Below are positions 3,238-14,306 of a DNA stretch of 64,000 nucleotides, in pieces. Position 1 is the first letter of the stretch; each line of letters begins with the position of its first letter. The DNA comes from Corynebacterium urealyticum DSM 7109 (lineage in GTDB: Bacteria; Actinomycetota; Actinomycetes; Mycobacteriales; Mycobacteriaceae). The stretch is taken from assembly GCF_000069945.1 (NCBI RefSeq), contig NC_010545.1, positions 620,001-684,000 on the forward strand. The letters run 5' to 3'. The translations under genes were made by a program, and so were the position numbers. The notes beneath the pieces are model-generated. The model was not told the origin of the DNA. It made no database searches and was given only the letters and a program-made list of their open reading frames with translations.

Positions 3238-3314
3238 CGCGGGGTGGAGCAGCTCGGTAGCTCGCTGGGCTCATAACCCAGAGGTCGTAGGTTCGAATCC
3301 TGCCCCCGCTACCA
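3238..3314 (+). tRNA. Initiator tRNA-Met (CAT), host gene of the integrated element
   Basis: A 77-nt cloverleaf with anticodon CAT at 3272-3274. The first base is C facing T at position 72, so the acceptor stem lacks a 1-72 pair, which with the GGG/CCC anticodon-stem pairs is the mark of an initiator tRNA. D-arm (GAGCAGCTCGG), T-arm (GGTTCGAATCC) and an encoded CCA at 3312-3314 are visible. The 3' half from 3275 onward is repeated at 12764, so everything from the anticodon stem to the CCA in this copy was supplied by the inserted element, which restores a complete gene. Confidence 0.96.
3275..3312 (+). repeat. Left attachment repeat (attL core)
   Basis: This 38-bp stretch covers the 3' strand of the anticodon stem, variable loop, T-arm and acceptor 3' strand of the tRNA. 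It is identical to 12764-12801. The next base differs (C here, T at 12802), which sets the outer limit of the crossover region. Confidence 0.9.
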
Positions 3315-3320
3315 ACTTCC

Positions 3321-3354
3321 AAGCCCCTACCAGGAGAAACACTGGTAGGGGCTT
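3321..3354 (+). terminator. Terminator downstream of tRNA-fMet, supplied by the element
   Basis: A perfect 13-bp stem (3321-3333 with 3342-3354) with an 8-nt loop, followed by TTAGTTATTT. It differs from the native terminator, now displaced to 12809-12842. Confidence 0.85.
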
Positions 3355-3428
3355 TAGTTATTTCTCTTAAGGCCGGCGGATTCGGGTTAAACGACAAAAT
3401 GTGTGTCTGACTCCGGCGTGTCGCGGGG

Positions 3429-4607
3429 TTAGATGTGGCCTTTTTGGATGCCGATTGAGTGTGTGTAGTCGGTGTCGATAGCGTTGTCGTAGAGGGCTGG
3501 TCGTCCAGTTTCGTGGTCGGCTTGGTTCTCGTTGTGGGTCAGGGTGGATACTTTGGCGAGTTGGTCCTGGCCCCAGTTGGACTGCCTGGCGATCTCAACG
3601 GGGCCGTCAGGCAGTTCCGTTTGCAGGTACAGCCACCAATCCAGCATCCGGCGTTGGTGTTCACCGGATCTGCCGCGGTGGGTGCGGGCAAGCAGTTTCA
3701 ACTGGGCGTTGATGCCGCCTTCCAGGCTGTTGGTGGTGGATTTGATCCGGCTGACATCGAGGACACCGTCAGGTGGGTCGAGATAGACAAATAACAGCTG
3801 GTTGCGCCATAGGTGGTTGAGGCTGTTGTAGGCCTTGCGGGTGCGTTCATGCGTCCATGACCAGGTGTGTTGCCGTGTCGCTGGGTCGGTTGTGAACGTT
3901 TTCTGGTTCATCCAGTCGCGGTAGATAGTGCCGTATTCGTGCAGTTGTGCACCCCACTCGGCTGCCTCGTCAAGAGCGGTGATCTTCGTGAGGTTGAGCG
4001 CGAGCTGGTAAATCGCTCGTCCTGCATCGGTGCGGGGGCGTGAGGTGGTGTGCCGACGCACCACGCGTTGGGCGTGAACGAGGCAGCGCTGCACTTTCGT
4101 TGCAGGCCAGCATGTCTTGATTGCGCTGGCAGCGCCTTGGCCGCCGTCGATGACAGCGATCAGGGGCGCGGGGATACGTTCGAGGAGCCTTTGGTAGTCG
4201 CGGGTGGTCTCACGTGTGCACCAGTGCCAAGCGATGACGTGATCCAAGGTGGCGGCAACAATCAAGCATCCGCCGGCGGTGTAGGTGCCGTCAAGAAAGA
4301 CCTGGTCGTAGACCCGGCCTTCGTGCCCGATCGTGGGATCGGGGACATCAACTAGCCAGAAGTGTTCAAACCGGCGTTGCAGGGTACGCGGATGACACCC
4401 TGCTTCGGCGGCAGCGGTTTCCAAGCTCGCACCGGTTGTGAGGTGGGTGATAAATGCTGCGAAGGCTGCTGAGTTGGTGATATCGGGGCGCTGCTTGGTG
4501 GTGGAAGCGCCGCAGATTTTGCACCGCCACCGGGTGCGGTTGGCGGAGGTCTTACCGTTGCGTTTCATCTCCCCGCCGCAGTGGCAGCGTGGTCTGTTCT
4601 TCGGCAT
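3429..4607 (-). CDS. IS1249 family transposase
   Basis: A 392-residue DDE transposase of the IS256 superfamily, IS1249 type, which cuts and joins the ends of its own insertion sequence. An N-terminal zinc-ribbon-like region has CHC (residues 8-10) and CKIC (30-33), followed by an HTH-like stretch near 55-80. Candidate catalytic residues are the Asp of DGTY (about 107), the Asp of DGGQG (about 154) and the Glu of NSLEGG (about 297). The frame is intact, so the enzyme may still be made, but the right inverted repeat of its element is split by the IS3 insertion upstream of this start. The start ATG at 4607 lies 71 bp from a strong hairpin that may limit read-in expression. Confidence 0.9.
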   Translation of the reverse strand: MPKNRPRCHCGGEMKRNGKTSANRTRWRCKICGASTTKQRPDITNSAAFAAFITHLTTGASLETAAAEAGCHPRTLQRRFEHFWLVDVPDPTIGHEGRVYDQVFLDGTYTAGGCLIVAATLDHVIAWHWCTRETTRDYQRLLERIPAPLIAVIDGGQGAASAIKTCWPATKVQRCLVHAQRVVRRHTTSRPRTDAGRAIYQLALNLTKITALDEAAEWGAQLHEYGTIYRDWMNQKTFTTDPATRQHTWSWTHERTRKAYNSLNHLWRNQLLFVYLDPPDGVLDVSRIKSTTNSLEGGINAQLKLLARTHRGRSGEHQRRMLDWWLYLQTELPDGPVEIARQSNWGQDQLAKVSTLTHNENQADHETGRPALYDNAIDTDYTHSIGIQKGHI

Positions 4608-4677
4608 TGATCAATGCCAACACCAGCTCCTACCACACGCTGCTGTCACACCCGGTATTTCGCCGCCCCGGGGCGGA

Positions 4678-4698
4678 TATATGCTCTAGGAGCATATA
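4678..4698. promoter_or_regulatory. Perfect hairpin upstream of the IS1249-like transposase
   Basis: A 9-bp perfect inverted repeat TATATGCTC with a 3-nt loop, between the right IS end and the transposase start. In many insertion sequences such structures block read-through translation of the transposase; that role is inferred here. Confidence 0.5.
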
Positions 4699-4788
4699 CT
4701 TTCCGGATTACCCCTGATCAACCCAAACAAATCGACGAATCCGGACACACATTTGGGGATGCGGACGGGATCTTGGAGGATTCCACTT

Positions 4789-6168
4789 ATGAACCGTTCG
4801 TACACAGATCAGCAGCGTCGCAGAGCGATTGAGGTTTATAAGCGCACTCAGTCGGTGACGAAGACGACCCGGCAGCTGGGGTATCCGGGGAGATGGACGC
4901 TGTACAAATGGTTGCGTGAACCCACCACTCCAGGTAGACCGCGTAAGCAGGCGAAAACCTTGACGCGTTACCCGTTTGAGGTCAAGCTTCGTGCTGTCGA
5001 ACTTTTCAACGCCGGCTGGAGCCCAGCTGACATCGCTCAAGAATGTGGGCTGAGGTCAAAAATGAGCGTCTATTCTTGGACACAACGCCATCGTGAAGAG
5101 GGACAATGGGGGCTGATGTCGAAAAAGGAACGAGAAGAACGTGCTCGCATCCCCACCCGAGCAGCCCTTGAAAAATCTTTGCCGGATGATCCATCTGAAC
5201 TGAAAGAACAGATGGCCAAGCTGCTGGTCGAGAAAGCTGTATTGGAAAAGGAGCTGGAGCTTGTAAAAAAAGACGTCAGCGTCATCCCAGGTCAGCTCAG
5301 TAATAGACAAAAGACCGCAGTGGTTGACGCGCTACGCCCTGACTTCCCCTTGCCGATGCTGCTCGCCTCTATCGGCCTTGCACAATCGAGTTTTTACTAC
5401 CACCTTCAACAACGCAGCCGGCCCGATAAGCACGAGCATATCCGTGACATACTCCATGCCATCGACGCGCAGTCGGACAACACGTACGGCTATCGACGCA
5501 TGTGGTGGGAGTTGCGTCATCGTGGGATCATCATCAGCGAGAAGGTTGTTCGTCGCCTCATGCGCGAAGAAGGAATCGTGCCCCGCTTTCCGAAACGCAA
5601 GTGGAGGTACTCCAGCTATCAGGGAGAAATTTCACCAGCTCCGGACAACTTGGTGAACCGTAATTTTCACGCTGACAGCCCAAACAAGTTGTGGCTAACT
5701 GACATCAGTGTTTTTGCAGCTCACGATAGTCGCGTGTACCTCTCTGCCATAATCGACTGTTTTGACGGCAAGGTCGTCGCCGCGAAAACAAGCGTGCACC
5801 CCACTATGGAGTTGGCGCAGGAAACCCTGCTTGCTGCCATTGAAGCGGAGCAGCCAGAAGCAGATGGTTCCCTGGTGCTTCATTCTGACCGGGGTGCACA
5901 TTACCGCGGTAGCACCTGGCGCAGTTTGACCGCTAAATACGGGATTGTCAGCTCAATGTCTAAAAAGGGTTGCAGCCCAGATAACGCAGCGTGTGAAGGA
6001 TTTTTCGGCCGTATGAAAAATGAGATGTACTACGGCAAGGTTTGGCAAACCACCAAAGAGCTCGAAGAAGCCATCGCGCGATACATCGAGTTCTATAACA
6101 ACCACCGGATCAAAACCAGTCTAGGCGGTGTGAGTATCACCGCCTACCGAAAACTTCATGTAGCGTGA
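4789..6168 (+). CDS. IS3 family transposase, single uninterrupted frame
   Basis: A 459-residue transposase that carries both OrfA and OrfB parts in one frame. The N-terminal part has two HTH-like regions (about 1-40 and 58-90) and a charged coiled-coil/leucine segment (about 130-165). The C-terminal rve integrase core shows the DDE triad: Asp in WLTDIS (about 305), Asp in HSDRGAHY (about 367), Glu in NAACEGFF (about 403). The start at 4789 is chosen for the preceding TTGGAGGA at 4773-4780; an upstream in-frame ATG at 4753 would lie on the IS end itself. Most IS3 elements split orfA and orfB and fuse them by frameshift; here the fusion is encoded directly. Confidence 0.9.
   Translation: MNRSYTDQQRRRAIEVYKRTQSVTKTTRQLGYPGRWTLYKWLREPTTPGRPRKQAKTLTRYPFEVKLRAVELFNAGWSPADIAQECGLRSKMSVYSWTQRHREEGQWGLMSKKEREERARIPTRAALEKSLPDDPSELKEQMAKLLVEKAVLEKELELVKKDVSVIPGQLSNRQKTAVVDALRPDFPLPMLLASIGLAQSSFYYHLQQRSRPDKHEHIRDILHAIDAQSDNTYGYRRMWWELRHRGIIISEKVVRRLMREEGIVPRFPKRKWRYSSYQGEISPAPDNLVNRNFHADSPNKLWLTDISVFAAHDSRVYLSAIIDCFDGKVVAAKTSVHPTMELAQETLLAAIEAEQPEADGSLVLHSDRGAHYRGSTWRSLTAKYGIVSSMSKKGCSPDNAACEGFFGRMKNEMYYGKVWQTTKELEEAIARYIEFYNNHRIKTSLGGVSITAYRKLHVA
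5265..5271 (+). other. A7 slippery heptamer in the IS3 transposase gene
   Basis: Seven A residues are phased as A AAA AAA in the reading frame, at the junction between the OrfA-like and OrfB-like parts. A -1 shift would leave the long frame and stop at TAA 5301-5303, giving an OrfA-only product of about 171 residues. Use of the site is inferred. Confidence 0.45.
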
Positions 6169-6217
6169 CCCGAAACTGTCCAACAAAATGTCCGCGTCCC
6201 CTTTTGTCCTTTAACCC

Positions 6218-6486
6218 TCCTGGGACTCAAATCGGGACTTTAGCGATGGCATTTTGTCACTTAAGCCGGTTTGGAAGTGATGGGGTTAAGTGACAATTTT
6301 CGATTTTGTGACCTTGGATGACTGTGTCGTTTTGAGGAGTCGTCTGCACGGATTTCAGAAGTCCTCTGCACTATCGCCATCCACTCCGGAGAGGCCGCGG
6401 GCGTTCGTCCACTTCATCTGGAACGCGACTCGACAGAGCACATCCAATAGGATGGTCTTTTTCTCCCTGCGAAGGATGGGGGCAGT
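6218..6486. other. Gene-free stretch with integrase-tail and IS-end relics
   Basis: No convincing gene. At 6222-6240 there is an 18/19 match to the last codons of the integrase gene (12637-12655). At 6251-6267 and 6283-6299 a pair of inverted 17-mers resembles the IS1249-like terminal repeat (GGGTTAA..GACAA). The stretch up to 6486 has no recognisable content. Confidence 0.55.
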
Positions 6487-6891
6487 TTAGGATGCCAGGG
6501 TGTTGACCAGATCGAGGAATTCCTCAGCGTAGGCAATTTGCTTGCGTAGCTTTTCGTAGCGGGTGCGCGTCTCCTCACGAATGTCGGCAAGGGTGGCCTT
6601 GGCATTACTCCGTGCCTGCTGTGCGGGATCACTGTCCTGCACGCCATCCGAACTATGAAGAATCTCCGCAGCTTCCAGGAATTCCCGCATCTGATCCAGA
6701 GTAAACCCCAGCGGTTTCATCCGTCGCACCAGCAAAACACGACGTACATCAGCCTCACTATAAAGCCTGAACCCACCAGGGCTACGCCCCGATGGGCTAA
6801 TCAGGCCGACGTTGTCATAATGACGCAAGGTGGGAATCGACAACCCCGTCTGGTCAACGACCTCGCCGATCTTGAAATTACTGTTTTGCAT
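6487..6891 (-). CDS. MerR family transcriptional regulator
   Basis: A 134-residue one-component regulator. The N-terminal winged HTH is typical (residues 5-75: IGEVVDQTGLS, TLRHYDNVGLI, GFRLYSEADV, RRMKPLGFTLDQM), followed by a long coiled-coil dimerisation helix (about 80-125). No Cys-rich metal-binding loop is present, so it is not of the MerR/CueR metal-sensor type. It is transcribed away from sulP, with a perfect dyad between the two genes, which suggests that it controls the transporter. The inducer cannot be deduced. Both genes lie inside the integrated element and are presumably cargo. Confidence 0.9.
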   Translation of the reverse strand: MQNSNFKIGEVVDQTGLSIPTLRHYDNVGLISPSGRSPGGFRLYSEADVRRVLLVRRMKPLGFTLDQMREFLEAAEILHSSDGVQDSDPAQQARSNAKATLADIREETRTRYEKLRKQIAYAEEFLDLVNTLAS

Positions 6892-6981
6892 TGCCTGTTC
6901 TCCTTCACGGTGATGTTGCCCACGGGTTCCTGTGCCTGGGTTGGCGGTTGAGCAAAACTCCCGCTACCATAACCACCATCA

Positions 6982-7008
6982 CCAACCCTAAAGCTACTAG
7001 AGGGTTGG
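6982..7008. promoter_or_regulatory. MerR-type operator between merR and sulP
   Basis: A perfect 8-bp dyad, CCAACCCT and AGGGTTGG, is separated by 11 nt, with CTAAAG/CTAG in the centre, the usual layout of MerR-family operators. It sits 91 bp upstream of the merR start and 53 bp upstream of the sulP start. Confidence 0.7.
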
Positions 7009-7060
7009 ATTCCTTTCGGGCGTTCGCCCAGTTAACTATCCCCTCAAAGATTGGACATCT

Positions 7061-8620
7061 ATGACTGAAACTAGCACGGTGGCTCCGCGCCCCCAATCTG
7101 ATCCGGAGGGCACCGACGCCCCCAACGGAGTCGTCGCATCCTTCCGCTACGCGTTCTCCTCACTCACCCGCCTCCGCAAGGAGGTCCTGGCCGGCCTAGC
7201 CGTCGCACTCGCGCTGATCCCTGAGGCGATCGCCTTTTCCATCCTCGCCGGTGTCGACCCAGCCGTCGGCTTGTTCTCCTCGGTGGTCATGTCGATCGCG
7301 ATCGCCTTCACCGGTGGCCGCCCGGCGATGATCACCGGTGCTACCGGTGCGATCGCCCTAGTCATTGCTCCTGTGGCGCGTGATTACGGGATGGATTATT
7401 TCATCGCCACCGTCCTGCTGGCCGGCGTCATCCAGATCGTGATGGCTTTGCTGGGGGTGGCGAAACTCCAGCGGTTTATCCCTAGGTCGGTGATGCTCGG
7501 CTTCGTCAACGCACTGGGAATCATGATCTTCACCGCCCAGCTCGAGCACCTGATCGACGTGCCCTGGATGGTCTACCCCCTGGTGGGCCTGGGCGTGTTG
7601 ATCATGATCTTCTGGCCGAAGGTCACCGGGGTGATCCCGGCCCCGCTGATCACGATCATCGTGGTGACCGGCCTGGCCATTGTTGCCGGCTTCACCGTCC
7701 CGACGGTCTCGGACATGGGCCAGATGCCTGAGTCCCTGCCGGAACTATTCATCCCGAACGTGCCCCTCACGCTGGAAACCCTCCAGATCATCGCCCCCTA
7801 CGCCCTGGCCATGGCCGTGGTCGGTCTCATGGAATCGTTGATGACCGCCAAGCTCGTCGACGACATCACCGACACCCACTCCGATAAGACCCGCGAAAGC
7901 TGGGGCCAGGGTGTCGCGAACATCACCTCCGGCTTCTTCGGCGGCATGGGTGGCTGCGCGATGATCGGCCAGACCATGATCAACGTCCGCGAATCCGGCG
8001 CACGCACCCGACTATCCACCCTGCTCTCGGGTGTCTTCCTGCTCATCCTCGTCCTGGCACTAGGCGATATCGTCGGAATGATCCCCATGGCCGCCCTGGT
8101 CGCGATCATGATCATGGTCTCGGTCGGCACCGTGAACTGGCATTCCGTGCACCCACGCACACTCAAACTCATGCCGGTGAGCGAAACCATCGTCATGGCC
8201 GTGACGATTATTGCCACCCTAGCCACCCACAACCTGGCGATTGGTGTGGTCCTGGGTGTGGTCACCGCGATGATCATGTTCGCCCGCCGGGTGGCCCACT
8301 TGGTTCGGATCGAGATGGTTCGCGAGCTCGACGTGGACCGCGACGGCACGATCGATATTCGCACCTACCGGGTCTCCGGACAGCTGTTCTGGGCATCAAG
8401 CAATGACCTGGTCTACCAGTTCGACTACACCGATGAAGCCGACCACATCATCATCGACATGATGATGGCCGAGATCTGGGACGCCTCCACGGTGGCCACC
8501 CTCGATTCGATCACCCAGAAATTCCAGGACAAGGGTAAAACCGTGTCCATTATCGGGCTCGACGGTCCCAGTCAGGACCGGCTGAACCGCCTGTCTGGCC
8601 GGCTTGGCACCGGCCACTAA
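7061..8620 (+). CDS. SulP family inorganic anion transporter
   Basis: A 519-residue inner-membrane carrier of the SulP (SLC26-like) family, which move sulfate, bicarbonate or related anions with Na+ or H+. About 11-12 hydrophobic segments cover residues 35-425, starting with the family signature region ([19 protein letters not shown]), and include the [13 protein letters not shown] motif near 288-300. A short STAS domain follows (about 430-515). The start at 7061 lacks a strong Shine-Dalgarno. It lies divergent from merR with the operator in front and a terminator behind, so the pair is a self-contained cargo unit of the element. The substrate is not decidable from sequence; sulfate and bicarbonate are the first guesses. 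Confidence 0.92.
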
Positions 8621-8646
8621 CATCCCCCGACTCGAGCACATCGACT

Positions 8647-8675
8647 TGGCGCCCCAACTTATAACCGGGGCGCCA
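8647..8675 (+). terminator. Rho-independent terminator after sulP
   Basis: A perfect 9-bp stem TGGCGCCCC/GGGGCGCCA with an 11-nt loop, followed by GTTTATT, 27 bp after the sulP stop. Confidence 0.8.
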
Positions 8676-8682
8676 GTTTATT

Positions 8683-8700
8683 GGTGCTGTTGCAAAGTTG
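8683..8700. repeat. IS6-family-like terminal repeat, solitary
   Basis: GGTGCTGTTGCAAAGTTG closely resembles the terminal inverted repeat of IS6-family elements (GGxxCTGTTGCAAA). No transposase or partner end is found nearby, so it looks like a leftover end at the right edge of the merR-sulP cargo. Confidence 0.45.
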
Positions 8701-8723
8701 GGGCATAGGAAGAGCATAAAAGA

Positions 8724-8747
8724 AGCGTAGCGGTTAACCGCTACGCT
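8724..8747. terminator. 24-nt perfect palindrome after the mob operon
   Basis: AGCGTAGCGGTT followed directly by its reverse complement, without a loop. It lies just downstream of the minus-strand mobB-like gene and could end mob transcription or serve as a protein-binding site. Confidence 0.5.
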
Positions 8748-8789
8748 GTGTTGTGGGGATTTTTACTTTTTACGGTGCACGTGTTCTAG

Positions 8790-9824
8790 TTAGTGGTTCG
8801 TTTCTTTCCTCGGGTGATTGCGACGGTATTCCTCGACTAAGTGAGCAATACCCGGCGCAGCCTGGGACAACATCCAGGTCATAAGCGCTATAAGAACCCC
8901 TATGACGATAAGTGTTAACGCCAACCAGCCCAGTGTTGGGCCGATGCCGTTGGCCTCCTGGACGTGACCCCACAAGGCAGACACGCCGTCGGGTATGCCG
9001 AGCATACTTAGCAGCCCGTTCCCCAAGGCTCCGACAGCAACGAGTGCGATAGCAACGAAGAGAACACTGGCTGCAATCCACGAGGCAGACATGCAGGCCT
9101 TAATAAAGTTCGTGTTCGACTTTTCCATGTCGTCGTTGTACTTTTTGCGCTCTGCACGTATCTTCTCCAGCAGCTTTTCGTTGGACTCCTTCTCCTGGAG
9201 CAGGGCGCTGCGAGCCTTCTTAGATGCTTCTGCTGCCTTGTGCAGGCTTTCGGACTCTTTCGACATTGCCTCAGATACAGCTACTTCTACCAGCGGTTCC
9301 AGGCTAGAAGTCAGGCTCGAAGTCATCTGAGCGTTCAGGCTCTGGGCTACTGCTTGGCTGGAATCCTTGTCGAGATGGATGGGGCTTTCGGCTGCTTTGA
9401 GTACCAGCTGTTGCATCCTTGTCAGACGCGACATCTGCTCGCTTATCTCGATTAGGTACCCTTTTACCCCCTCCAGGCCGTTGGGCAGATCCTCGATGTT
9501 CCTTATCAGCCCGGTGATCATCTGCTGCACTTCCATCATCGTTACTTGGAAGTGACTGCTGCTCACGTAGTTCTTGTTTGCGGCGAGATTGCTTTTTACG
9601 TTCCTTAATTCGCTTTCCGCTTGCGTCAACCTCGTCGAGAAGTCGCTGGGCAGAGAACTGAGAATGTCCCCTGTATTCTCCGGCAGACTCTTCAGTTTCT
9701 CCTGCAGCGTCTTGATAGCCTTCTCCGCCTTGTCCAGGCGTGGGCTGAGAACCTTCAAGACGCTGTCCATCTTGCCTTTCGCCGCTGCTTGGGCTAGCTT
9801 CGTCATCTCGGTCACTGACACCAT
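8790..9824 (-). CDS. MobB-like coiled-coil membrane mobilization protein
   Basis: A 344-residue protein whose first 174 codons overlap the 3' end of mobA in another frame. The start ATG at 9824 is preceded by a good AGGAGG with 9-nt spacing, which decides it against longer versions of the frame. The protein is mostly predicted coiled coil (about 10-245, heptad-like, rich in Lys/Glu/Gln/Leu), followed by a hydrophobic segment near 245-285 and another near 300-325, and a short basic tail. It could tether the relaxosome to the membrane or coupling protein, as RSF1010 MobB (also encoded inside mobA) is known to do. That role is inferred from gene layout and topology; there is no sequence motif to prove it. 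Confidence 0.75.
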   Translation of the reverse strand: MVSVTEMTKLAQAAAKGKMDSVLKVLSPRLDKAEKAIKTLQEKLKSLPENTGDILSSLPSDFSTRLTQAESELRNVKSNLAANKNYVSSSHFQVTMMEVQQMITGLIRNIEDLPNGLEGVKGYLIEISEQMSRLTRMQQLVLKAAESPIHLDKDSSQAVAQSLNAQMTSSLTSSLEPLVEVAVSEAMSKESESLHKAAEASKKARSALLQEKESNEKLLEKIRAERKKYNDDMEKSNTNFIKACMSASWIAASVLFVAIALVAVGALGNGLLSMLGIPDGVSALWGHVQEANGIGPTLGWLALTLIVIGVLIALMTWMLSQAAPGIAHLVEEYRRNHPRKETNH

Positions 9825-10914
9825 GATTGAATACCTCCTGGTTGTTATAGTTTTCTTCCTCCTCGTCATCGAGAAGGCTGGAGCCGTATTTCGCCTCCAG
9901 GTCGTCATCGGTTGAATTGGCTTGAAGTGCTGCAAGCTGCCGCGCAAGAAGGGCTGATTGGGCCTCGTTAACGCGTTCGGTCACACCCTCTAGCGAGTAG
10001 CTGCGGCCCAATTTTGAGCCAGCTTTAGCTGCTTTACGCTTTCGAGTACGTCCGGCCTTCGTGGTGTTCGTGAAGTAGGCATCCTCGCCGTCGTCGTCGA
10101 CCAGGGCCACGGTTAGCGACTCACCCTCGGTTTTTGAGTTGGGCTGCACTTTTAGAGACAGGTTGTATTTGCCAGCAATCTCTACTGCCTTCGCCAGTGG
10201 GTCGTCAGCATCTGCCACCTGTTTATCCGCGCACAGCTCATCCATGCGCTTGCGGGCAAAATCAGCCCACGTGGCTGCGGTCAGCTCATCCACGCCCAGG
10301 CCCGTCGAGTCTGTGGACTTGCCCTCCTTGCGTGCCCTGCGCTCAGCAGGAAGCAGCGATATTTCCGGCTCTCGCTCCAGGACACGCATCCCCAAATCGC
10401 GCATCAGCTCGTCGTTGATATTGCGCAGCTTGTACCAGTTGCGCATATCCCGAGGTGCAGCCTTCTTTGTCTGCGTATCGTGGTTGGCAAAGACGGTATG
10501 GTTGTGGACACAGTCGCTTTTACTGTCGGTGTGCGTAGCCACGGTAAACGGAACTCCCGTGCCCTGCGTCAGCCGCATCGCCAGCTCTGAGCCAGCCGCA
10601 TTAGCCCGAGCTACATCGGCCGGGTTATCCTTATCCAGCTCGTCTTTAGCCCACGATTGGATATAAATAATTGCTTCGTCAGTGCGCTGAGCCGGAGCAC
10701 ATCGCTCCATTTCTTCCACACTGGCTTCCATGAAGTCCACACCCGACCAACGGCCAGCCGTAGCCTCCGGAGAAAACGATTCAGCGTTAGGTTGAACCGT
10801 GCATAAAGCATCGGCTCGCACCTCACCCTTGCGGGCATTGTCTGCCGTTCCATAGACGGCGTAGACCGTTGCCGCGCGGATATTCTGGCTGTAGTTAATC
10901 TTGATTGTGGACAA
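9304..10914 (-). CDS. mobA: MobA/VirD2 family relaxase
   Basis: A 536-residue relaxase that would nick oriT and lead the strand in conjugal transfer. The N-terminal domain (1-200) carries the three-His metal motif in HTDSKSDCVHNHTVF (about 128-142), and candidate nicking tyrosines lie in the first 22 residues (Tyr8, Tyr18, Tyr21). Residues from about 370 on are low complexity (Ser, Glu, Asp, Arg, Gln), exactly where the gene overlaps the mobB-like frame. The start overlaps the end of mobC by 20 bp, so mobC-mobA-mobB form one operon reading leftward from the candidate oriT. The motif places it in the HxH relaxase group (MOBP/MOBQ); the subgroup was not determined. Confidence 0.88.
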   Translation of the reverse strand: MSTIKINYSQNIRAATVYAVYGTADNARKGEVRADALCTVQPNAESFSPEATAGRWSGVDFMEASVEEMERCAPAQRTDEAIIYIQSWAKDELDKDNPADVARANAAGSELAMRLTQGTGVPFTVATHTDSKSDCVHNHTVFANHDTQTKKAAPRDMRNWYKLRNINDELMRDLGMRVLEREPEISLLPAERRARKEGKSTDSTGLGVDELTAATWADFARKRMDELCADKQVADADDPLAKAVEIAGKYNLSLKVQPNSKTEGESLTVALVDDDGEDAYFTNTTKAGRTRKRKAAKAGSKLGRSYSLEGVTERVNEAQSALLARQLAALQANSTDDDLEAKYGSSLLDDEEEENYNNQEVFNHGVSDRDDEASPSSGERQDGQRLEGSQPTPGQGGEGYQDAAGETEESAGEYRGHSQFSAQRLLDEVDASGKRIKERKKQSRRKQELREQQSLPSNDDGSAADDHRADKEHRGSAQRPGGGKRVPNRDKRADVASDKDATAGTQSSRKPHPSRQGFQPSSSPEPERSDDFEPDF

Positions 10915-11263
10915 AGTCCTTCACCTCTTTGCGAAGAGAAGAAACCTCGGAGCCAATGCTTTCTACAGCCTCAGACACGGGGGCCACGCCGTCGATATTC
11001 GCGCGGCGAGCCAACTGGTTTAGATTGACGCCAATCCGCCGCAGTTGGTCGTTCATCTCGTCCAGGCGGCGCAGCGTGTCCGGGGCCAAACGCTTTTGCG
11101 TCAGCACGCTCTCCTCCTCCGCGAGGACATAGAGAGCTTCCCGGAACACGACGGCCTTTTGCACCCCTACGACCCGTACGACCTCCTCGACAAATCGGTC
11201 TAAATCCTTATCGAGGCGCACGGTTGTACGCGAATATGTCGAGAACTTGTCTCGCATATCCAC
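10895..11263 (-). CDS. mobC: MobC family mobilization protein
   Basis: A 122-residue relaxosome accessory protein. The region LRRIGVNLNQLARRAN (about 74-89) is the signature of the bacterial MobC family. The N-terminal part (RTTVRLDKDLDRFVEEVV) looks like a ribbon-helix-helix DNA-binding fold. It is the first gene of the mob operon, with a 20-bp overlap with mobA. The start ATG at 11263 is used; a second ATG two codons later is closer to the AGGAGGTGG-type Shine-Dalgarno seen upstream. It probably binds the inverted repeats directly upstream and helps MobA open oriT. Confidence 0.85.
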   Translation of the reverse strand: MDMRDKFSTYSRTTVRLDKDLDRFVEEVVRVVGVQKAVVFREALYVLAEEESVLTQKRLAPDTLRRLDEMNDQLRRIGVNLNQLARRANIDGVAPVSEAVESIGSEVSSLRKEVKDFVHNQD

Positions 11264-11279
11264 CTCCTACTTATCGTGC

Positions 11280-11430
11280 TTACTGTGGCAGGGTGGCCCC
11301 GACTGCTGATGCAGCCAGGGCCACAGTCTGTTTGTAAGGGTCACGCTTCTCCGGTGTCGGCCCCCTGAATCTGCGGGGCAGATTCAGGCGTACTCGCCAC
11401 CGTCAAAGACGGCCCTCACAAACAGGCGGC
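11280..11430. other. Candidate origin of transfer (oriT)
   Basis: A gene-poor stretch directly upstream of mobC with nested inverted repeats: an outer pair at 11328-11340 and 11413-11425 (CTGTTTGTAAGGG, 12/13 complementary), an inner perfect 11-bp hairpin at 11364-11374/11378-11388 with a GGG loop, and CTGTGGC/GCCACAG at its mobC side. Position next to mobC-mobA and repeat density are typical for oriT. The nick site cannot be named. Confidence 0.55.
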
Positions 11431-11805
11431 CAGCAAATACGTGCCGCCAGAACGAAACTAAGCCTTGGGGAAGATTCCATCGACCGCGTCGTTGATGCTT
11501 TACCGCCGCGAGGTCCATACGAAGCGAAAATCACGGTCCGACTATGGGACGGAACGACTTACCGCCCGACAATCCGGGCAAGGACAAAGGGGGAATTCCG
11601 GCGAATTGCCGTCGAGAAGCGGGATAGCAAGCTCAACTCGACGTCGACCAATTGGGATAAGAGCAAGAACTTCTCGGCGTTCATTACCGACGTCTCTAAG
11701 CCGGCCATCCGGGCGGCACGTCTGCGACCGAACACGCGCGCCCGGTATGAGCTCGCATTAAAGCAGGCCGAAGCACAGCTAGGAAAACACGCCATTGGCG
11801 AAGCT
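11338..11805 (+). other. In-frame upstream part of the integrase lacking a start codon
   Basis: The integrase frame is open from a stop at 11335-11337, without a break. From about 11455 the translation reads as integrase-like protein (SLGEDSIDRVVDALPPRG, then a region like an arm-binding domain and a core-binding SAM-like domain up to RYELALKQAEAQLG). No ATG, GTG or TTG occurs in this frame before 11806; the only near-cognate starts are CTG at 11365 and 11371 and ATA/ATC/ATT codons. The gene has either lost its 5' end at a junction with the mob region or uses an unusual start. Confidence 0.6.
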
Positions 11806-12657
11806 GTGAAATTCCGAACTCTCGAACACGCATTGCAGGCCATCGCCACCGCAAACGGGTCGGAATCTGCACGGCAGGCCCGCACCGTCGTGAGCAAGTA
11901 CATTCTGGATCAGCTCATCCGCGAGGGTGTTATCGACCACAACCCGTTACGCGGAATCAGCATCGACCTCGGCGAGGTCAAGAAGGGCAATAAACCACAA
12001 GGTGGTCACGCCCTGACGAACGCCCAATACGACGCCGTTGTAGACCATCTCATTGCACGCGATACCGCCAGACCGTTACCACCGGGCACGGACAGACGAG
12101 CAAGCTCCATCGCAAAACATGACAACGTGGTCGCGCTGGCACTACTGCAAGCGGGGACGGGACTTCGCATCTCCGAGGCACTGGCAGTGACGAGGCATTC
12201 TGTAAAAGTCGCTAATGGGCAGATCGCTATCAGCATTACATCTGAGCAATCCAAAACGCACAGAGGCCGTTCTATCCCGTTCCTGGACAAGCGTGTCGAA
12301 AAGTTTTGGTTAAACCGGCTCGACGGACTAGGAACGGCCGACCCACTGATCCCTTCGCCAGGAGACAAGCAGGCGCACTGGCGCACCGACAACGCCGTGA
12401 AAGCGTCAGCGGCTCTGTTTAAAGATGTCGGCGCGCAGGTCCAGGACGACCACATCGCTTTAATGAGATCCCATGACTGGCGCACGGTGCTCAATAACCG
12501 GGCCATCGCGCGAGGGGTGCCCGCCCAGGTGCGTGCAGCCTACTTCGGGCATGACGTCGACGTGAACGCGCGCAACTACACGGATTGGACTGATGTCGAC
12601 GCTATGCGGGGAGCCTTGAATCTCGGTGAAGAAAGTGGGACTCAAAACGGGACTTAA
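11806..12657 (+). CDS. int: Tyrosine-type integrase of the tRNA-borne element
   Basis: A site-specific recombinase, presumed to integrate and excise this element at the tRNA-fMet site. From the first canonical start (GTG 11806), 283 residues hold part of the core-binding domain and the whole catalytic domain. Visible catalytic residues are Arg in GTGLRISEAL (about 123), Lys in SEQSKTHRGR (about 149), His and Arg in SHDWR (about 226-229), His in YFGHD (about 249) and Tyr in ARNYTDW (about 258). Homologous-looking coding sequence continues upstream in the same frame without a start codon, so the listed start probably gives a truncated protein. The gene ends 107 bp from attR. Confidence 0.85.
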   Translation: MKFRTLEHALQAIATANGSESARQARTVVSKYILDQLIREGVIDHNPLRGISIDLGEVKKGNKPQGGHALTNAQYDAVVDHLIARDTARPLPPGTDRRASSIAKHDNVVALALLQAGTGLRISEALAVTRHSVKVANGQIAISITSEQSKTHRGRSIPFLDKRVEKFWLNRLDGLGTADPLIPSPGDKQAHWRTDNAVKASAALFKDVGAQVQDDHIALMRSHDWRTVLNNRAIARGVPAQVRAAYFGHDVDVNARNYTDWTDVDAMRGALNLGEESGTQNGT

Positions 12658-12670
12658 GAGTCGGTAATCC

Positions 12671-12690
12671 GCGGTAAGGCGCAGTAAGGC
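12671..12690. repeat. Tandem decamers, candidate integrase arm sites
   Basis: GCGGTAAGGC is followed directly by GCAGTAAGGC, then a weaker third copy CCAGTATGCT. They lie between the integrase stop and attR, where arm-type binding sites of tyrosine integrases are expected. Confidence 0.45.
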
Positions 12691-12763
12691 CCAGTATGCT
12701 TATACCTCTCTAATCAGCAGGTAAAAGGGTAATAACTGCAGGTGGCTCGAACTTGAGGGTGAG

Positions 12764-12801
12764 AACCCAGAGGTCGTAGGTTCGAATCCTGCCCCCGCTA
12801 C
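12764..12801 (+). repeat. Right attachment repeat (attR core), tRNA 3' fragment
   Basis: Identical over 38 bp to the 3' half of tRNA-fMet at 3275-3312. It is not a tRNA gene itself, since the D-arm and anticodon are missing. It is followed by CTAA instead of CCA, so the original chromosomal gene probably lacked an encoded CCA. Confidence 0.9.
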
Positions 12802-12808
12802 TAAGAGC

Positions 12809-12842
12809 AAGGCCCCCTCACTGGAAACGGTGAGGGGGCCTT
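12809..12842 (+). terminator. Displaced native terminator of tRNA-fMet
   Basis: A perfect 13-bp stem AAGGCCCCCTCAC (12809-12821) with its complement at 12830-12842 and an 8-nt loop. It lies immediately behind the tRNA fragment, as expected for the original downstream sequence. Confidence 0.8.
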
Positions 12843-12885
12843 CGTCATGTCCGTATGATTCAGTGTCGGCTGTTAACCTTTCACT

Positions 12886-13278
12886 ATGGGCGCTAAAACA
12901 ACTCTTGGAAGGTTGCTCGCAGGTGCTGTGGGCATCCCGGTGCTCACGGTGCTGATCAGTTTCATTATCAATGACCCGAATTCGGCGTGGAGTGTCACAG
13001 ATGCGCTCATTATGGCGGTGGGGGCGTCGCTGACAACAGTGTGGGTTGCTGCTCTGGGTGGGTACCATTTCTTGCGGTCGCGCAGGGCTCCAGTGAGGGG
13101 CACCGTCGTGGCTTGGGCCGGGGTGGGGTGCGTGATGCTGCTCCTTGGTTTTGGTTCGACGGCGCTTTATGCGTGGGAAGAAGTCGCGGCAGGGCAGGCG
13201 CTGCCCATAAATAACCTCTTTATCTTGCTTATCCCGCTCGGCATTATCGCGGTAGCCGTTGCTTTTTCGCGCTCTTGA
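12886..13278 (+). CDS. Small four-helix membrane protein, function unknown
   Basis: A 130-residue protein that I do not recognise. Four hydrophobic segments are visible (about 8-27, 38-60, 73-95, 106-126) with short polar links (a RSRRAPVRG basic loop at 63-71), and no long soluble part. The ATG at 12886 is preceded by weak spacing only. It is flanked on both sides by nearly identical 31-bp terminator-like sequences (12818-12848 and 13384-13414), so the gene may have entered or been duplicated together with them, next to the tRNA integration hot spot. Confidence 0.6.
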   Translation: MGAKTTLGRLLAGAVGIPVLTVLISFIINDPNSAWSVTDALIMAVGASLTTVWVAALGGYHFLRSRRAPVRGTVVAWAGVGCVMLLLGFGSTALYAWEEVAAGQALPINNLFILLIPLGIIAVAVAFSRS

Positions 13279-13383
13279 CTGGGGCTTGTGGGTGCCTGTG
13301 CTACCCGCGAAAATAAGCCAGCGCACGCGTTGGGCGGTGCCGGAGCACTCTGGGAAGAAGTGGCTGCTCGCATCGGGGGGGGT

Positions 13384-13414
13384 TCACTGGAAACAGTGAG
13401 GGGGACTTCGTCAT
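13384..13414 (+). repeat. Second copy of the tRNA terminator segment
   Basis: 29 of 31 bases match 12818-12848 (TCACTGGAAAC...GTGAGGGGG.CTTCGTCAT). It stands just before the cupin gene. The left arm of the stem is lost here, so it is a relic and not a working terminator. Confidence 0.7.
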
Positions 13415-13448
13415 CCCCGGGGTTGGAATTTTGTGGGAGCATGGGGTC

Positions 13449-13838
13449 ATGAGCGCGAATAAAGATACTTCCACGAAGCAGCCGTATAACTCCGCCGGCG
13501 AAGGCTGGACGTACCTCACCCAGCTGGACGCAGAACACAGCCAGGAAGAGGGGGAAGGCCGTGCCGTCCCTGAGGTTCGCATCCAGGAAAAGCTTGGGCA
13601 CGCGTCCGTCGTCCGCATTGCCTTCCGAAAGGGGGACGTCATGGCGGACCACCACGCACCGGCACCGATCATGGTGCTTGGCCAGACCGGTGAGGTCGAG
13701 TTCGACGTTGGCGGAGAGACACTTCTCATCAAGCCAGGCACCGCGGTCTCTGTGGTGGCGAACGTCTCCCACGAGCTGCGCGCGGTCAACGGACCAGCCA
13801 CGGTGACCTTGATGCTGATCACCGGGCCCGAGGGGTAA
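13449..13838 (+). CDS. Cupin domain-containing protein
   Basis: A 129-residue small single-domain cupin. The C-terminal half has the beta-barrel pattern with H-x-H in MADHHAPAP (about 70-74), the Gly-rich turn GQTGEVEFDVGG, and PGTAVSVVANVSHEL (about 98-112), whose His completes the metal site. Such proteins bind metal or small ligands; no reaction can be assigned. The start ATG at 13449 is chosen over an ATG 18 bp earlier because it stands behind a GGGAG-containing stretch. It precedes the flavin-split-barrel gene by 45 bp, so co-transcription is possible. Confidence 0.75.
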   Translation: MSANKDTSTKQPYNSAGEGWTYLTQLDAEHSQEEGEGRAVPEVRIQEKLGHASVVRIAFRKGDVMADHHAPAPIMVLGQTGEVEFDVGGETLLIKPGTAVSVVANVSHELRAVNGPATVTLMLITGPEG

Positions 13839-13883
13839 AACTCCGGCACGACACGAAAAAGCAAACAGTGCCAGAATGGAAGT

Positions 13884-14306
13884 ATGGCTGATTTTGAGAA
13901 CCCCATTGAGATCCTGAAGGAAGACGAGGCCCTGGAGCTGATGGGTGACCAGCAGCTCGGTCGCCTGGTTGTTCGCATCAAGGATGACTTCGACATCTAC
14001 CCGTTGAACTACGTGGTGAACGAGGGGAAGATCTACTTCCGCACCGCGGAGGGCTCCAAGCTGTTTACCGTGTCCATCAACGAGCGGGTGCTCTTCGAAG
14101 CCGATGATCACACCGAGGACAAGGCATGGTCCGTCATCGTCAAGGGACGCGCTCGCATCCTGCAGAGGACGGACGAGATCCAGGAGGCCGACGAGCTGCC
14201 GCTGAAGCCGTGGCTGCCGACCCTGAAGTACAACTACGTGGAGATCACCCCTGAGGAGATCTCCGGCCGGCGCTTCCAGCTCGGCGAGGAGCCGGAGCGC
14301 TACTAG
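13884..14306 (+). CDS. Pyridoxamine 5'-phosphate oxidase-like split-barrel protein
   Basis: A 140-residue protein of the flavin/F420-binding split-barrel superfamily. The pattern LGRLVVRIKDDFDIYPLNYVV (about 25-45) followed by IYFRTAEGSKLFTV (about 50-63) is the usual cofactor-binding core, and WSVIVKGRARIL (about 81-92) is the next strand pair. It is probably a cytoplasmic reductase or flavin/heme-binding protein; the substrate is unknown. It is followed by a strong terminator, which ends the cupin/split-barrel unit. Confidence 0.85.
   Translation: MADFENPIEILKEDEALELMGDQQLGRLVVRIKDDFDIYPLNYVVNEGKIYFRTAEGSKLFTVSINERVLFEADDHTEDKAWSVIVKGRARILQRTDEIQEADELPLKPWLPTLKYNYVEITPEEISGRRFQLGEEPERY

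Follow-up and report, generated by a model that had tools for sequence, protein, structure and literature searches.

In a 64,000-nucleotide stretch of the Corynebacterium urealyticum DSM 7109 genome (NC_010545.1, positions 620,001–684,000; hereafter the window, whose numbering we use), the segment integrated in the gene for the initiator transfer RNA (tRNA) is very probably a grounded copy descended from an integrative mobilizable element of pipolin type, which copy keeps a merR-sulP cargo along with its mobilization genes. The copy is probably unable to leave, having lost its own DNA polymerase and the front of the integrase gene. The kind of element is already known; new are the variant, the target, the cargo, and the repeated grounding. 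A first-pass annotation made from the sequence had seen here a working mobilizable element, of which proposal the insertion and the mobilization genes stood and the completeness did not, the integrase start, the polymerase, and an excisionase-like gene being lost and a putative arm-type site displaced.

Insertion in the initiator tRNA gene

The perfect 38-bp repeat of the tRNA-fMet 3' half, as first described, proved exact, positions 3275–3312 being identical to 12764–12801. The segment delimited by these attachment (att) cores (3313–12801; 9,489 bp) codes for an integrase, a relaxase, and MobC. The tRNA at 3238–3314 has the anticodon CAT, an anticodon stem with three G-C pairs, and a C-U mismatch at 1-72, which G-C pairs and mismatch are marks of initiator tRNAs. 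In the 2.37-Mb genome, a single contig, a 93-base query matched one full copy of this gene and, at attR, its 3' half; with this only full copy restored in its 3' half and with empty sites in relatives, the insertion in the initiator tRNA gene claimed at the outset was borne out.

The comparison with related genomes that lack the segment, which check had been suggested, yielded a clean empty site in G107 and G145 (G and L numbers denote genomes and loci), in each of which the joined flanks aligned contiguously as a single match over query bases 1–261 of 411 (at 98% and 92%, respectively), with one tRNA and the native hairpin after it. Both genomes diverge from the window past base 261 because a small open reading frame (ORF; 12886–13278) is absent there. 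The native tRNA end in these two genomes is CTACTAAG, versus CTACCAAC at the window attL, which difference indicates that the encoded CCA and the terminator-like hairpin come from the element. We accordingly find at this locus the parts of a tRNA-integrated island: a full tRNA, a displaced 3' fragment, an integrase between the two, and an empty site in relatives.

The block missing from the window copy

In other Corynebacterium species, a block sits between the mobilization genes and the integrase that is missing from the window: the DNA matching the two sides of window position 11430/11432 lies about 5.1 kb apart in G099, G207, G093, and G073, while in G035 the integrase side and the polymerase are visible up to the contig end. 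The G099 block encodes a 1036-residue protein with what we take to be the motifs of family-B polymerases, and a 75-residue protein matching an excisionase PHROG (6e-7) and HTH_17 (3e-5, which is below Pfam's cut-off); its further small ORFs had no family match. Searches of the window's genome with the relatives' proteins found both the polymerase and the excisionase-like gene to be gone. The first reading, that replication genes were absent, thus holds for this copy, but the relatives have a polymerase in the very block that is missing here.

The integrase start codon went with the deletion, whose junction lies within a 5-bp microhomology. Residues 2–409 of the intact integrase align to the window at 98% with no stops; the window frame, which an active island would need to open with a usable start, has no ATG, GTG, or TTG before 11806 and, upstream, in-frame CTG, ATA, ATC, and ATT codons.

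The mobilization genes and the integrase had been correctly placed inside the segment, the relaxase belonging to PF03432 and MobC to PF05713. The window mobilization proteins are 99–100% identical to those of relatives (relaxase and MobC open, 99% to G099), and to these two components of an integrative mobilizable element a putative origin of transfer (oriT) and nic site may be added. As for a type IV secretion system (T4SS), which the earlier annotation had likewise found wanting, the coupling-protein family PF02534 had no match in the genome (5 of 14 control genomes match), and no transfer gene was present among the window ORFs scanned for families, T4SS families beyond PF02534 not having been searched.

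The polymerase and its link to pipolins

The relatives' polymerase has a family-B fold and matches the polymerase of plasmid pSE-12228-03 of Staphylococcus epidermidis at E 3e-50; against the phi29 polymerase, the probability was 5.9% and E 0.0064. A piPolB-type polymerase is thus recognizable, by homology only, in G099, G207, G093, G073, and G035, and not in the window copy. Polymerase matches occur in 23 of 242 Corynebacterium genomes, several being split or stop-interrupted, and the same query has no match in the window's own genome. The window copy is pipolin-derived and not a pipolin, and the polymerase of the intact relatives may synthesize DNA independently of a primer.

The rows of VIA-align contained no piPolB structure and are uninformative for pipolin membership. 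Neither the phages, searched by tblastn with the polymerase, nor the plasmids, searched by tblastn with the integrase, gave matches, and a plasmid megablast with the whole segment returned cargo and insertion-sequence (IS) matches only, among the matches listed (20 of 25). Among the papers listed in the literature searches, none dealt with this Corynebacterium element, as judged by the title and the opening of the abstract, subscription papers being mostly outside the coverage.

Putative arm-type sites

Eight of the 13 loci tested have direct repeats paired at a spacing of exactly 12 bp, one pair lying 65–71 bp inward from the left core and the other 120–128 bp inward from the right; when each of the 13 loci was shuffled 50 times by single bases, no pairs appeared. 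The shuffles are the only control, the 0.01 expected matches referring to a pattern drawn from the two sites themselves. The letters of the pairs vary among integrase clades and the geometry is constant, and we infer that the pairs would be arm-type sites of the integrase and the 10–11-bp repeats next to the right pair possible excisionase sites. The left pair of the window lies 2.9 kb from the core versus some 70 bp in relatives, which displacement is due to an insertion carrying two IS transposases. A reading of the 23-bp repeat (6221–6243 and 12636–12658) as a second integrase remnant was rejected because intact relatives have the same pair at both ends, an arm-type site fitting better.

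Table 1. Features of the island and its immediate flanks, in window coordinates.
Feature	Position	Strand	Basis or remark
Initiator tRNA (CAT) gene	3238..3314	+	5' part native, 3' part from element; empty sites in G107, G145
attL core (38 bp)	3275..3312	+	Within tRNA gene
Terminator-like hairpin from element	3321..3354	+	Sequence; same hairpin at left ends of relatives
Insertion missing in relatives (ends approximate)	3374..6214	.	Comparison with relatives
IS1249-family transposase	3429..4607	-	Family search
IS3-family transposase (start codon uncertain)	4753..6168	+	Family search
Left putative arm-type site, GGGACT pair 12 bp apart	6222..6243	+	Repeats
MerR-family regulator, cargo	6487..6891	-	Family search
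SulP-family anion transporter with STAS domain, cargo; open, diverged allele	7061..8620	+	
ORF overlapping the relaxase gene in another frame	8790..9824	-	MobB-like by position only
Relaxase (PF03432, MobA/VirD2-like)	9304..10914	-	
MobC (PF05713)	10895..11263	-	
Candidate oriT region, inverted repeat 11328-11341 / 11412-11425	11264..11431	.	Function predicted from sequence
Deletion junction, 5-bp microhomology	11432..11436	.	About 5.1 kb of relatives missing
Tyrosine integrase body without standard start	11437..12657	+	First in-frame ATG/GTG/TTG is GTG 11806
Right putative arm-type site, overlapping integrase 3' end	12637..12658	+	Repeats
Direct repeats of 10-11 bp, possible excisionase-binding array	12662..12697	+	Proposed by eye; comparable runs in sister elements
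attR core, displaced native tRNA 3' half	12764..12801	+	38-bp repeat
Native terminator-like hairpin, now after attR	12809..12842	+	Sequence; 3' of tRNA in empty sites

Recurrence and spread within Corynebacterium

Close copies with a full integrase (n = 5) all have a full polymerase; those with a cut integrase, the window and seven others, have none. Two of these seven, G126 and G004, join the left end of the window-type element to the right end of a sister clade, which mixed ends point to fused copies and not to simple deletions. The loci were found through the integrase, so that copies from which it had been wholly lost would be missed. The junctions read in the window, G054, G085, G151, and G202 are all five different; the front-cut copies stop at five different places inside the same integrase gene, and in four species besides the window's own, distinct deletions each took the polymerase and the integrase front together. 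G108 keeps the last 31 integrase residues only.

The left 2.6–2.7 kb of the element is 99.7–99.9% identical to that of G099 in G207, G085, G054, G151, G202, G126, and G004, whereas the host gene adjoining the tRNA is 57–95% identical among these eight genomes (28 pairs, median 63%, some comparisons being partial), G207–G085 and G126–G054 being the close pairs at 94–95%; which discordance indicates that the element moved between species recently. Within the first of these pairs, G207 has the intact form and its near relative G085 a cut one. Relatives seen in the scan of genome contigs include Corynebacterium sp. p3-SID1145 and sp. HMSC04H06.

That deletions start at oriT as a rule was considered and discarded, the left end being common to only two of the five junctions (window and G054), with the other three falling in mobA or mobB. 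In loci L064 and L065, additional CAGGCGG-like units stand in tandem next to mobC, at the point from which the deletions of the window and G054 run, which place adjoining the candidate oriT is possibly a fragile spot.

The cargo

The merR-sulP pair is complete in six of the seven cut loci besides the window and absent in G108. Among the five intact loci, two have the pair and two do not, the G035 contig ending too soon; the first eight residues of the G207 SulP do not align. The window cargo is a diverged allele (89% DNA identity; for sulP, synonymous divergence, dS, of 0.67 and nonsynonymous divergence, dN, of 0.08 versus G099). Rows for locus L066, its coordinates being off, were excluded from the comparison. 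The pair also occurs on Corynebacterium plasmids (matches H1–H5, 82–88% identity), which occurrence marks it as mobile cargo in its own right.

Use of the target by related integrases

The first-pass annotation had held the initiator tRNA to be a less common target, which generality does not fit this genus: the initiator tRNA is a common target of this integrase family in Corynebacterium. The integrase matched 43 of 242 Corynebacterium genomes, 30 of which entered the tRNA count and 13 of which lay outside it; in 25 of the 30 genomes with a fetched match the tRNA-fMet 3' half stands beside the integrase or its remnant, five being without it, and the half is present as well in G202 and G108, two of the 13. 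Integrases some 50–63% identical use the same tRNA but accompany other replication modules, L068 having a protein with a family-A polymerase domain, L070 a Rep_OBD protein, and L077 a DUF5906 protein. In the sister element of L068, the family-A DNA polymerase domain belongs to a 1422-residue protein (9745–14013). A family-wide draw gave integrase matches in 5 of 251 genomes at E <= 1e-20; two of these were outside the genus, and in their short loci no tRNA was found.

At the same tRNA site, G017, a third close relative, has different DNA, two of whose ORFs look, by inspection alone, like a methyltransferase and a DUF262/HNH protein. The native terminator-like stretch occurs twice in the window (12818–12853 and 13384–13419, 566 bp apart, 89%), flanking the small ORF already mentioned, which is found in G017 and absent from G107 and G145. 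L092 (G090) and L093 (G116) each contain the complete tRNA-fMet gene twice, at distances of 9.4 and 8.1 kb, respectively, and nothing in between matches the window integrase; these would represent either another insertion type or a gene duplication. G054 (L076, L091) has islands in tandem at a single tRNA: first a cut copy of the present element, which has an attL core to itself, and next to it other DNA that extends as far as the full tRNA.

Proposed history and alternatives

The following course would account for these findings. An integrative mobilizable element of about 12 kb when intact would have entered the initiator tRNA gene, its tyrosine integrase recombining the 38-bp core, probably while attached to a pair of arm-type sites on either side, and the tRNA 3' half that the element brought with it, with encoded CCA and terminator-like hairpin, would have kept the tRNA gene whole. 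Besides a relaxase and MobC, the intact form codes for a family-B DNA polymerase of pipolin type and an excisionase-like protein, with which set it could leave the chromosome, be replicated, and travel with the aid of a helper. A microhomology deletion, reaching from beside the putative oriT into the first integrase codons, then took away the integrase start together with the polymerase and excisionase-like genes, and the insertion with two IS transposases shifted the left arm site away; the loss of excision would follow from these changes.

Several points weigh against this account. The integrase body being open, 98% identical, and stop-free, a rare non-standard start (in-frame CTG or ATA) might still yield some protein. 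No solved structure matches the polymerase in sequence, and primer-independent synthesis and transfer are both predicted activities. The arm and excisionase sites are assigned from repeats alone, and 5 of the 13 loci (L071, L078, L079, L080, L095) showed no pair, several of these having a similar right-side pair by eye.

An alternative that we consider unlikely, though the best of those remaining, is that the copy does not excise by itself and is moved in trans, another resident or incoming integrase acting on its cores and the relaxase and oriT allowing transfer by a helper. The identical cores and open mobilization genes would permit it, and partners are at hand in the genus, given the spread of related integrases (43 of 242 genomes) and the tandem islands of G054; this genome, however, has no second integrase of the family, and its left arm site is displaced. 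The original proposal, a complete island still excising by itself, restoring the tRNA gene, and moved by a helper, appears improbable: identical att cores, an open relaxase and MobC, and an open integrase body speak for it, but the integrase has no standard start before GTG 11806, the excisionase-like and polymerase genes are gone, and the left arm site is 2.9 kb away. That the short form is ancestral and others gained the polymerase block later is very improbable. In its favour, no allele of merR-sulP is more diverged than that of the window; against it, the ends of the front-cut copies fall at five different places, each truncating the same integrase gene, and the missing side is where the integrase has its start region.

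We therefore retain the grounded derivative as the explanation of the window copy. For the genus as a whole we propose, only tentatively, that pipolin-type mobilizable elements which crossed species recently have been repeatedly grounded by new deletions of the polymerase and integrase front with sulP mostly kept, in such a way that hosts, shedding the replicative core, disarm the element and retain a fixed transporter island in the initiator tRNA gene.

Comparison with known systems

The natural series of empty site, intact element, and five different grounded copies bears on how fast and why hosts disarm self-replicating elements. It ties polymerase-bearing elements of Corynebacterium to an essential tRNA gene, the same gene being used by sister integrases with other replication modules, and it illustrates that an island whose tRNA repeat is perfect and whose integrase frame is open cannot on those grounds be called active.

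In the Islander catalogue, an island counts as putatively active if it has an integrase and the two att sites (PMC4383910). Like its islands, the window segment has a full tRNA at one end, a displaced 3' fragment at the other, and a tyrosine integrase inside, and its core starts in the anticodon loop, a crossover class named in that work; unlike the putatively active class, the segment bears the signature with an integrase that has no start.

The integrating conjugative elements of actinobacteria (PMC3218068) likewise combine a tyrosine integrase, a tRNA 3' end, and replication functions of their own, and one Frankia element lies in a tRNA-Met gene. Those elements move by an intermycelial transfer protein, unlike the present one with its MobA-type relaxase and MobC and, in the intact form, a family-B polymerase.

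A further close resemblance is to pipolins, with which the intact relatives share a polymerase homologous to that of pSE-12228-03, a tyrosine recombinase, and att repeats in a tRNA gene. Pipolins occur on plasmids in S. epidermidis, and plasmid pipolins carry relaxases (PMC9710591), as does pSE-12228-03 also. The differences lie in the target, the pipolins of Escherichia coli using tRNA-Leu (PMC7385651) and the present elements the initiator tRNA; in the merR-sulP cargo; and in the window copy itself having no polymerase.
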